NCBI RefSeq assembly: GCF_008727925.1
Contig: NZ_VTWT01000003.1
Location: 248,001-312,000, forward strand
Source of the DNA: Adhaeribacter soli
GTDB lineage: Bacteria; Bacteroidota; Bacteroidia; Cytophagales; Hymenobacteraceae
Reading direction: 5' to 3'
Length of the DNA stretch: 64,000 bases
Shown: positions 48,721 through 63,539 of the stretch, piece by piece
How the letters are laid out: each line of letters begins with the position of its first letter
Position numbering within the stretch: position 1 is the stretch's first letter
Translations under genes and position numbers: made by a program
The notes under the pieces: model-generated
The model's database searches: none
The model's input: only the letters and a program-made list of their open reading frames with translations
What the model was told of the DNA's origin: nothing

Positions 48721-48736
48721 AGAATTACCTTTGGAA

Positions 48737-51571
48737 ATGGCACGTAAAAAACTCTTCCTGCTGGATGCCATGGCCCTGATTTACCGGGCCCATTTCGCAT
48801 TCAGCAAAAATCCGCGCATCAATTCCAAGGGCATGAACACGGGCGCCGCGCTCGGTTTTACCAACACCCTGGTAGACGTTCTGAACCGCGAAAAGCCCGA
48901 CCACATTGCCGTAGCCTTCGATGGTCCGGAGAAAACTTTCCGCCACGACAATTTTGTGGAATATAAAGCCAACCGCCAGGCCATGCCTGAAGATATTTCG
49001 GTGGCCATTCCGTACGTAAAAAAACTGGTGGAGGCCTTCAATATTCCCATGCTCATCATGCCCGGTTTCGAAGCTGACGACATCATTGGAACGCTAAGCT
49101 GCAAGGCCGAAAAAGCCGGCTACGACGTGTACATGATGACGCCGGATAAAGATTACTACCAGCTCGTGACCGAACACGTTTTCGTTTACAAACCCGCTTT
49201 CCTGGGCAATGCCATCGATATTATAGACGTGCCCAAGGTGCTGGAAAAATGGGAAATTTCGGATGTAAAACAGGTAATCGATATTCTGGGTTTACAGGGC
49301 GATGCGGTCGATAATATTCCCGGCATTCCTGGTATCGGTGAGAAAACGGCCAAGACCTTAATTCAGAAATATGGCTCCGTAGAAAACCTGATCGCGCACG
49401 CGCACGAGCTCAAAGGCAAGCAGCAGGAAAACGTGATGAAGTACGCCGAGCAAGGCCTGATGTCGAAAGAGCTGGCTACCATTCATTTAGATGTTCCCAT
49501 TCATTTCGACGAAGAAAAGTTTGAATACAATGGCCCGGACGAAGAAAAATTGAAAGCCCTTTTCGATGAACTGGAATTCCGAACGCTTGCGCAACGCATT
49601 TTCGGAAACGCTACGGTTGCCACGCCAAAAGCCCCGAAAGCTGCGCCTCCGACCATGGTCAAGGGCAAAAAATCCGATCAGCAAACTTCGCTTTTCGACG
49701 ACCTCGATGACCTGGCCAATGTACCGGATTCCGGCGAATCCCTGGCAGGTTTCCGCCGCAACATTACCAATTCACCGCACGATTACCATTTAATAAATAC
49801 CCCGGAATTACGCCAAAGCCTGATCCAATATTTAAAACAGCAAACCGAAATTTCCTGGGATACCGAAACCGACAGCATCGATCCGATCACGGCGCTTCTG
49901 GTAGGTATGTCGTTCAGTTATATTCCCGGCGAAGCGTATTACGTAGCCATTCCGGAAGATGAAAGAGAGGCCCAAAAAGTAGTGGAGGAATTCCGGGAAA
50001 TTCTGGAAAGCGAAACAATCTTAAAGATCGGGCAGAACATTAAGTACGACATCCTGGTACTGAAACAGTACGGAATTTCGGTGAAAAAGCCGATCTTCGA
50101 TACCATGATCGCGCACTACCTGCTCGAGCCGGATATGCGTCACAACATGGATCTGCTTTCGGAAACCTACCTGAACTACACCCCTATTTCCATCACCGAA
50201 CTTATCGGCAAGAAAGGCAAAAAGCAGGTAACCATGGCCGATCTTGCGCCAGAAGAAATTTCGGATTATGCCTGTGAAGACGCCGACGTAACCCTAAAGC
50301 TGAAACAATACTTCGAGCCGCTGCTGGTAAAGAATAACCTGAAAAAACTCTTCGACGAAGTGGAAATGCCGCTCATAACGGTATTAGCCGAAGTCGAAAA
50401 AGAGGGCATCGCCATCGATTCCAAAGCCATGGCCGAAAGCTCGAAAGAACTGCAGGGCTACATCGAAGAAATTGAAAAGCGCATTTATGCATTGGCCGGT
50501 CAGGAATTCAACATCGGCTCCCCGAAACAGTTAGGCGAGATCCTGTTCGATAAAATGGGGCTGGGCGGCGCAAAATTGAAGAAAACCAAAACCGGTCAGC
50601 ACGCCACCGGCGAAGAAGTGCTTTCGAAGCTCGCTGCCGAACACGAAATTGCGCAGCTTATTTTAGATTACCGCCAGCTTTCCAAGCTGAAATCCACGTA
50701 CATCGATGCGCTGCCACAACTGGTTTGCAAACGCGATGGCCGGGTGCATACTTCTTTCAACCAGGCCGTGGCGGCCACCGGGCGTTTAAGCTCCACCAAC
50801 CCGAACCTGCAGAACATCCCGATCCGGACCGATAAAGGCAAAGAGATCCGTAAAGCGTTCGTGCCGCGCGACAAAGACCACGTGCTGCTTTCCGCGGATT
50901 ATTCCCAGATCGAGCTCCGCATCATTGCGCATTTCTCCGGCGATGCTACCATGAAAGAAGCCTTCCGCACAGGTATGGACATTCACACCAGTACGGCTGC
51001 CAAAGTGTACCACGTGAAACCTGCGGAAGTAGATTCGGAAATGCGCCGCAAAGCCAAAACCATCAACTTCGGCATCATCTATGGTATTTCCGCTTTCGGT
51101 CTGGCTGAACGCCTGAAGATTTCGCGCCGCGAAGCCGCCGACATCATTGAAGCCTATTTCCAGGAATTCCCTGCCATTAAGGAATACATGGATGAAGTGA
51201 TAAACCAGGCCCGCGAACAGGAATACGTGGAAACCGTTTTAGGCCGCAGAAGATACTTGCGCGACATCAATTCCCGGAACCAGACCGTGCGCGGGTACGC
51301 CGAACGCAACGCCATTAACGCGCCAATTCAGGGAACCGCCGCCGATATTATTAAAATTGCCATGATCAACATCCAGGACTGGCTCGACAAAGAAAAGCTG
51401 CAAACCCGCATGATCCTGCAGGTGCACGACGAATTGGTGTTCGACGTACCGCTGAACGAAGTGGAAATAGTAGCGCCCAAAGTGGAAGAGCTCATGAAAA
51501 ACGCCCTGCCGCTGAGCGTACCTATGGAGATCGGCATCGGTACCGGCTCCAACTGGCTCGAAGCCCATTAA
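48737..51571 (+). CDS. polA: DNA polymerase I
   Basis: A 944-residue DNA polymerase I. The ATG at 48737 is preferred; an in-frame TTG 6 bases earlier is a tracking artefact. The 5'-3' exonuclease domain covers about 1-300 (LFLLDAMALIYRAHFAFSKN, GFEADDIIGTLS, NIPGIPGIGEKTAKTLI), the 3'-5' proofreading domain about 340-540 (ISWDTETDSIDPITALLVGM with the metal-binding Asp-x-Glu intact, and DYACEDADVTL), and the polymerase domain about 560-944 (SADYSQIELRIIAHFSGD, RRKAKTINFGIIYGIS, ILQVHDELVFDVP). All three activities are expected. It fills gaps in repair and removes Okazaki primers. A heptamer array sits just before the start, and a MITE-like repeat begins 8 bases after the stop. Confidence 0.97.
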   Translation: MARKKLFLLDAMALIYRAHFAFSKNPRINSKGMNTGAALGFTNTLVDVLNREKPDHIAVAFDGPEKTFRHDNFVEYKANRQAMPEDISVAIPYVKKLVEAFNIPMLIMPGFEADDIIGTLSCKAEKAGYDVYMMTPDKDYYQLVTEHVFVYKPAFLGNAIDIIDVPKVLEKWEISDVKQVIDILGLQGDAVDNIPGIPGIGEKTAKTLIQKYGSVENLIAHAHELKGKQQENVMKYAEQGLMSKELATIHLDVPIHFDEEKFEYNGPDEEKLKALFDELEFRTLAQRIFGNATVATPKAPKAAPPTMVKGKKSDQQTSLFDDLDDLANVPDSGESLAGFRRNITNSPHDYHLINTPELRQSLIQYLKQQTEISWDTETDSIDPITALLVGMSFSYIPGEAYYVAIPEDEREAQKVVEEFREILESETILKIGQNIKYDILVLKQYGISVKKPIFDTMIAHYLLEPDMRHNMDLLSETYLNYTPISITELIGKKGKKQVTMADLAPEEISDYACEDADVTLKLKQYFEPLLVKNNLKKLFDEVEMPLITVLAEVEKEGIAIDSKAMAESSKELQGYIEEIEKRIYALAGQEFNIGSPKQLGEILFDKMGLGGAKLKKTKTGQHATGEEVLSKLAAEHEIAQLILDYRQLSKLKSTYIDALPQLVCKRDGRVHTSFNQAVAATGRLSSTNPNLQNIPIRTDKGKEIRKAFVPRDKDHVLLSADYSQIELRIIAHFSGDATMKEAFRTGMDIHTSTAAKVYHVKPAEVDSEMRRKAKTINFGIIYGISAFGLAERLKISRREAADIIEAYFQEFPAIKEYMDEVINQAREQEYVETVLGRRRYLRDINSRNQTVRGYAERNAINAPIQGTAADIIKIAMINIQDWLDKEKLQTRMILQVHDELVFDVPLNEVEIVAPKVEELMKNALPLSVPMEIGIGTGSNWLEAH

Positions 51572-51579
51572 AAAAGTAG

Positions 51580-51804
51580 GGACAGGTCGCGACCCAATGC
51601 TGTCAACTTAAGAAAAGTAACGTCATTTCGAGCGAAGCCGAGAAAACTTATGGGAATTACAATGGGCTGGCGAGCGTAGCAAGACAGGCCTTACAATAAA
51701 ATCTATCTGGAATGGCCCCATAAGCTCCCTCAACTTCGTTCGGGATGACGCAATATTTCAATTCATTTTTTCTTAAGTTGACGGCATTGGGTCGCGACCT
51801 GTCC
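51580..51804. mobile_element. MITE-like element inserted in a palindrome downstream of polA
   Basis: The 37-base arms 51580-51616 and 51768-51804 are reverse complements with one mismatch. The outer 15 bases of each arm are the two halves of the palindrome GGACAGGTCGCGACCTGTCC, which occurs uninterrupted at 63520-63539. The inner part begins CAATGCTGTCAACTTAAG and ends with its near-complement, so it behaves like terminal inverted repeats, flanked by a duplicated GGTCGCGACC. Inside is a third inverted pair (CGTCATTTCGAGCGAAG and a relative of its complement). No transposase is encoded, so it is non-autonomous. Confidence 0.75.
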
Positions 51805-51880
51805 GCAAACGCCGTGACCCGATGCAAAACGCCCTGAGCAGCCCGTAAAACAGTAGGTTTTATGCTGAAAAAGTAAACGT

Positions 51881-63519: not shown

Positions 63520-63539
63520 GGACAGGTCGCGACCTGTCC
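63520..63539. repeat. Uninterrupted 20-bp palindrome GGACAGGTCGCGACCTGTCC
   Basis: A perfect palindrome, flanked by GTAG on the left and GCA on the right, identical to the flanks of the split palindrome at 51580-51804. It therefore represents the empty site of the MITE-like insertion near polA. Confidence 0.9.

Follow-up and report, generated by a model that had tools for sequence, protein, structure and literature searches.

The window, by which we mean the whole 64,000-nucleotide stretch that was analysed, contains a putative polA gene, so named in a first reading of the sequence, and a GTAG tag that starts 4 bases past its stop codon. The tag adjoins a REP palindrome, GGACAGGTCGCGACCTGTCC, that is split at its symmetry axis by a 195-bp insert, with the 10-bp sequence GGTCGCGACC directly on either side (Table 1). 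By sequence inspection the insert has ends of the IS4-subgroup type and no transposase gene; no frame of 150 aa or more was found inside it. A sequence-only reading had interpreted positions 51580-51804 as the insertion of a MITE, with target duplication, into a REP-like palindrome, and this interpretation holds, given the ends, the duplication and the empty paralogous sites. As that reading described, the intact palindrome farther along the window is preceded by GTAG and followed by GCA, the two separated halves lie between these same outer flanks, GGTCGCGACC stands on both sides of the insert, and the terminal inverted repeats are near perfect (22 nt, one mismatch).

Table 1. Features of the interrupted palindrome and its surroundings, in window coordinates.
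Feature	Position	Strand	Basis
polA (putative; name from first sequence reading), upstream of the MITE	48731-51571	+	open reading frame
GTAG tag of the interrupted REP	51576-51579	+	sequence; tag on one side in 15/15 intact copies
REP palindrome, left part, ending in target duplication copy 1, GGTCGCGACC (51585-51594)	51580-51594	+	sequence
195-bp MITE	51595-51789	+	sequence, end matches, genome copies
Left terminal inverted repeat	51595-51616	+	inverted-repeat comparison
Right terminal inverted repeat, one mismatch versus left	51768-51789	-	inverted-repeat comparison
Inner module, dispersed inverted repeat GTCATTTCGAGCGAAGCC ... TTCGTTCGGGATGAC, REPIN-like; borders approximate	51622-51755	+	genome matches
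Target duplication copy 2, GGTCGCGACC (51790-51799), and REP palindrome, right part	51790-51804	+	sequence
Empty intact copy of the target REP palindrome, GGACAGGTCGCGACCTGTCC	63520-63539		sequence

All features that define a MITE (short length, terminal inverted repeats, target duplication and no transposase) are present in the window element. With the palindrome halves included, its inverted arms extend to 37 nt at 97% identity, and the stretch 51577-51808, folded as single-stranded DNA, gave z = -11.4 versus 200 shuffles. At up to three mismatches the palindrome matched once in the window and never in 100 shuffles, and the MITE end matched twice versus 0.03 expected, counts that exclude chance for both motifs. 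No Rfam match was found within the 64-kb window.

Both the palindrome and the ends recur across the window's genome (G000; 4.97 Mb in 16 contigs, with the window in contig C10), as a genome-wide collection suggested in the sequence-only reading confirmed. The palindrome is present in 24 copies at up to one mismatch, and its half, GTAGCGTAGGGTTTAAACC, has 80 matches per strand at up to three mismatches, a count that takes in halves beside inserts; most of the places listed are intact palindromes. For the end pattern we counted 33 matches at up to two mismatches, versus 4 for a reversed control. Some of these matches look like chance, for example L029 in a coding-like stretch. Defining a paired-end element by at most four mismatches per end and five in all, we counted 15 elements; single-ended and indel-bearing copies are also present and fall outside this count. 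Ten of the 15 lie at the axis of two palindromes or their close variants, namely the window palindrome (L001, L010 and the window element itself, L005) and GTAGCGTAGGGTTTAAACCCTACGCTAC (L002, L004, L007, L008, L009, L026 and L062), one lies in a third, G-rich repeat (L003), and four lie elsewhere (L015, L017, L021 and L030). The duplication is a perfect 10 bp in seven elements and has one mismatch in 10 bp in L009, L017 and L026, one in 11 bp in L003, one in 8 bp in L021, three in 10 bp in L015 and four in 10 bp in both L010 and L030.

Pairwise comparison of 16 elements showed that sequence similarity crosses target types. Two copies in a different palindrome share 88-90% identity with the window element, and the group that the window element forms with L062 and L300, the last with a decayed duplication, spans two different palindromes at 82-90% identity. 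L001, in the REP1 palindrome, is 94% identical to L003, in another repeat. A further group (L002, L008, L009 and L017; 86-95%) combines the second palindrome with a non-palindromic site, where the duplication is GGTTTAGGT(A/G). Since one element is found in several targets, each with its own duplication, we conclude that transposition occurred repeatedly, rather than the spread of one composite repeat, although type-B copies that share the second palindrome may, case by case, have been copied as a unit.

The length of the duplication was compared over 73 pairings of ends, in which element L239 is counted with two left ends and L192 is included. A clear duplication was seen in 37 pairings, predominantly of 10 bp (24 pairings, with eight of 11 bp and five of 9 bp), and the same test on mispaired flanks was passed by 271 of 19835. 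The other 36 pairings lacked a clear duplication, and some of these may be wrong pairings or decayed sites. To score target symmetry, the 37 clear cases were collapsed into 17 target groups and the first member of each was used. With the axis allowed to lie up to one base from the duplication centre, the best score was at least 8 complementary pairs of 12 in five of the 17 groups, versus 3.5% of control axes (binomial P about 0.0002), and in three of 15 when the two G000 palindromes were removed (P about 0.014); these P values are rough because control axes overlap. At the exact axis the figures were four of 17 groups versus 0.8% of control axes. Palindromic targets are thus favoured, not required, and we rejected a strict palindrome requirement since only five of 17 target groups score high.

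Relatives of the window's genome carry the palindrome and the ends in different combinations. Among 39 genomes searched, the window's own included, the ends (up to one mismatch) occur in five and the palindrome in eight. Palindromes without ends occur in G006, G007, G011 and G017, the last with 108 palindrome matches per strand and no end match at up to one mismatch, and ends without the palindrome occur in G012; the two are therefore separable. An element in the closest relative (L091 in G001, of the same genus) has the length and flanks of the L184 element in Adhaeribacter terrigena. The polA 3' region of G001 has neither the REP nor the insert, and for this reason the pre-insertion state of the exact polA site was not seen.

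A scan of public genomes for the ends returned at least 117 stretches, and its counts are lower bounds. We estimate that an 18-base pattern would give some ten or more single exact matches by chance in the 257 billion bases scanned, so only paired ends carry weight. Among the matches listed, paired ends with a clear duplication were found beyond Bacteroidetes in a Chlamydiae MAG (L161) and two Clostridia MAGs (L188, L213), and also in a Bacilli MAG (L202) and a Melioribacteraceae MAG (L190); Methanobrevibacter curvatus (L211) had perfect paired ends with no clear duplication. We note that miniature elements with the same ends are seen in Chlamydiae (L158, L161) and Methanobrevibacter (L211), and that Cytophagales miniatures L199 and L214 sit in a GTAG-tagged palindrome, GTAGGGGCGTATCGCATACGCC, with L247 and L254 at the same target.

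Full-length insertion sequences with the same ends, which the sequence-only reading had proposed to look for, were found in other genomes only and belong to the IS4 family. The ends of L202 (1415 bp) are perfect, as is its 10-bp duplication (CGGTGGTGTG), and its 451-aa frame matches the IS4-family transposase model NF033592 (164.6 bits, cut-off 115). L210, whose left end is a contig end, and L232 are also full length (1439 and 1431 bp) and encode IS4-family transposases; no duplication was seen at either. All three full frames score above the NF033592 cut-off, and the YREK spacing of the DDE transposase, Y(2)R(3)E(6)K, was present in all four stretches checked. We aligned the three transposases as a profile and searched 200 genomes of the window's family, of which two matched at E <= 1e-15 (G128 and G102). 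G128, from another genus of the family, has pieces of such a transposase at two contig ends, each beside the window's palindrome. One is bounded by GGGCAGGTCGCGACC|CAATGCCGTCAACTTAAG, with GGGCAGGTCGCGACC one base off the REP core, and the other by CTTAAGTTGACGGCATTG|GGTCGCGACCTGTCC, with the palindrome cut at the same point. The two pieces share a 130-bp overlap with one mismatch and may derive from one copy or two; joined across the two contig ends they imply a length of 1396 bp, where the subgroup size is 1400-1650 bp, and the partial frame scores 102.3 bits with NF033592, below the cut-off. G102 contains a frame-broken 1101-bp copy in CCCCTAACCCC with an 11-bp duplication, and the ends of three further matches there (L294-L296) are related but not the same, for example CAATGTCATTCAGTTAAG. 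From these sequences, the likely parent is an insertion sequence of the IS4 family that has the same ends and resides in another genus of the same family.

No match to the transposase profile was found in G000 at E <= 1e-15, and the copies therefore look orphaned. An autonomous partner in the same genome, a further feature expected of a MITE, was thus not found in the 16 contigs of G000, and the partner is found in another genus. Paired ends of this type were not found within about 1.5 kb of any of the six DDE_Tnp_1 matches in G000, nor at 30 DDE_Tnp_1 loci from G001, G002 and G012, and G022 gave no DDE_Tnp_1 match. Three candidates were rejected: L047 in G000, a single end match with four mismatches, is by eye part of another hairpin repeat; L192, of suitable length for a full insertion sequence, has frames that look, by eye, like a transporter gene; and L181 has only a 153-aa frame.

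The inner part of the window element appears to have a distribution of its own. The sequence-only reading had noted a nested inverted pair inside the insert; the pair is present (51612-51654 and 51717-51759, 72% identity) and we favour reading it as a dispersed repeat in its own right, carried by the element. Element positions 28-161 have at least 50 matches in G000 (40 of 96 candidates scored), of which three, the query included, span the whole element. Flanking inverted arms were identified at nine of 22 inner-module loci, and in six of the nine (L074, L075, L076, L078, L080 and L081) these arms are other ends, CATAGCCGTCAGGCTAAG, bounding elements of 187-188 bp. Five of the six have the 10-bp target GTGTTTTCAC, or nearly so, in a third palindrome, GTTGTTG(N)GTGTTTTCAC(N)CAACAAC, of which 14 empty exact copies exist; the target of L075 is GAGTTTTGGC. 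Since the six share the inner module and mostly a palindrome target, a second MITE family behaves likewise.

The target palindrome resembles the GTAG REPs described, together with RAYTs, in the available part of PMC3733652, in that the tag stands on one side of all 15 intact copies read, the palindrome is present in multiple copies and RAYT genes occur in the genome. Five RAYT-like frames of 182-191 aa were observed (C2:52804, C2:40346, C12:56474, C12:58371 and C5:92437; L054-L058), several beside clusters of hairpin repeats; L057 is also listed with the second MITE family, whose CATAGCCGTCAGGCTAAG ends lie mostly at the third-palindrome axis. Of these, L056 and L058 were tested, and both pass the REP-associated tyrosine transposase model. 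At C5:92437 the RAYT has on its flanks not the exact target but a sister palindrome, GGACAGGGCTTGACCTGTCC, which differs from the target at 3 positions.

The presence of RAYT-like genes allows for a different origin, in which the REP and insert belong to a single composite repeat, copied whole by, for example, RAYT activity, and empty palindromes arise by precise excision. Such a history would fit the sharing of the second palindrome among several type-B copies. However, a single element subtype is found in more than one palindrome and also, with local duplications, at sites other than REPs, and REP-rich genomes lack the ends at up to one mismatch. Inserts confined to the palindrome, or palindromes always filled in relatives, would imply a single composite element; in this genome four of 15 elements sit elsewhere, and the palindrome is mostly empty. 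The mixing of subtypes and targets largely refutes the composite repeat, which we consider very improbable. Even less credible is that a RAYT (Y1) transposase, rather than an IS4-family enzyme, moved the insert. The inner hairpins of type-B elements do resemble, by eye, the repeats adjoining RAYT genes L056 and L057, but the outer ends match those of IS4-family elements with their own DDE transposase. To our knowledge, 10-bp target duplications are not expected of Y1 transposases, which also counts against this mover.

The position just past the polA stop codon and the very strong fold could instead mean that the structure is retained because it functions as a terminator or as a hairpin at the 3' end of the polA mRNA, its mobility being old and irrelevant. 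Against this, related elements occupy many unrelated loci, and nine polA 3' regions of relatives (L268-L276, of 23 with a match) appear by eye to have neither palindrome nor ends, some carrying other hairpins. We regard this account as having very little chance of being correct, although a structure of mobile origin could also have a function.

Taken with the ends, the duplications, the empty paralogous sites, the same element in different targets and the transposase pieces in the same palindrome elsewhere, we are highly confident that the insert is a non-autonomous IS4-type MITE, probably moved in trans by an IS4-family transposase, and inserted at the REP axis through a 10-bp stagger. An IS4-family transposase recognising CAATGCYGTCAACTTAAG ends would mobilise the element in trans, probably by cut-and-paste, and would cut the two strands 10 bp apart, symmetrically about the axis of the GTAG-tagged REP palindrome, so that the 10-bp core GGTCGCGACC would be duplicated. 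This transposase may recognise the palindrome as such, by shape or sequence. The parent would then have been lost from the window's genome, and the inner module captured as a REP-like unit.

Comparison with described systems places the element in subgroup IS4 of the IS4 family. In the available part of PMC2266710, this subgroup has ends of the form -AATR--------WTW and direct repeats of 10-13 bp. The MITE end CAATGCTGTCAACTTAAG fits, with AATG at 2-5 and TTA at 14-16, as do the 10-bp window duplication and the YREK motif of the autonomous relatives (PMC2266710). The nearest named annotation to the partial G128 transposase is ISPa1635 of the IS4 family (35% identity), whose ends in one copy (L318), CAATGTCATCAACTTTGG and CAATGTCATCAACCTAAG, resemble those of the window MITE; ISPa1635 differs in coming from Pseudomonas, and no duplication was seen in the L318 copy. 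Insertion of an IS4-family element at a REP axis has a precedent in ISRm22 of Sinorhizobium meliloti, copies of which lie in REPs with the insertion point at the axis of palindromy (PMC1525189). ISRm22, however, is a full insertion sequence of subgroup IS4Sa (PMC2266710), with another host and REP, and a MITE is not mentioned in the available part of PMC1525189. The same part of that source lists IS1397, ISKpn1 and ISPsy8 (IS3 family) and IS621 (IS110 family) as inserting in REP palindromes; these belong to other families, and ISPsy8 makes a 3-bp repeat.

The event is thus a mobile-element insertion of a known kind in an unusual setting, nested and repeatedly used, and with it the targeting of REP axes by IS4-family elements now includes miniature elements in Bacteroidota. 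New are the miniature form, the use of several unrelated palindromes, the exchangeable REP-like inner module, which suggests how such modules could travel inside another element, and the rare inverted target duplications. A literature search of partial coverage, and hence weak evidence of novelty, found no description of a REP-targeting IS4-type MITE carrying REP-like modules, and the string TGTCAACTTAAG was absent from the literature searched. With filled and many empty sites for three palindromes in one genome and a candidate transposase named from another genus, target choice by sequence or hairpin shape becomes testable.

A more speculative picture, which we consider less likely than not, is that REP palindromes serve a guild of IS4-type MITEs as safe landing sites, that these MITEs in turn carry REP/REPIN modules exchanged between unrelated MITE ends, that REPs thereby spread on IS4-family transposases, and that template switching between arms 'perfects' the nested palindrome and leaves inverted target duplications. 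If REPs do act as landing pads, insertion at the axis would keep and lengthen the hairpin. In L010, L254, L078 and L080 we observed that the two copies of the target duplication are inverted relative to each other and the arms are more perfect, as though one arm were a rewritten copy of the other; for L078, empty sites give the ancestral orientation of the core. Template switching between the arms is a possible source of these inverted duplications.
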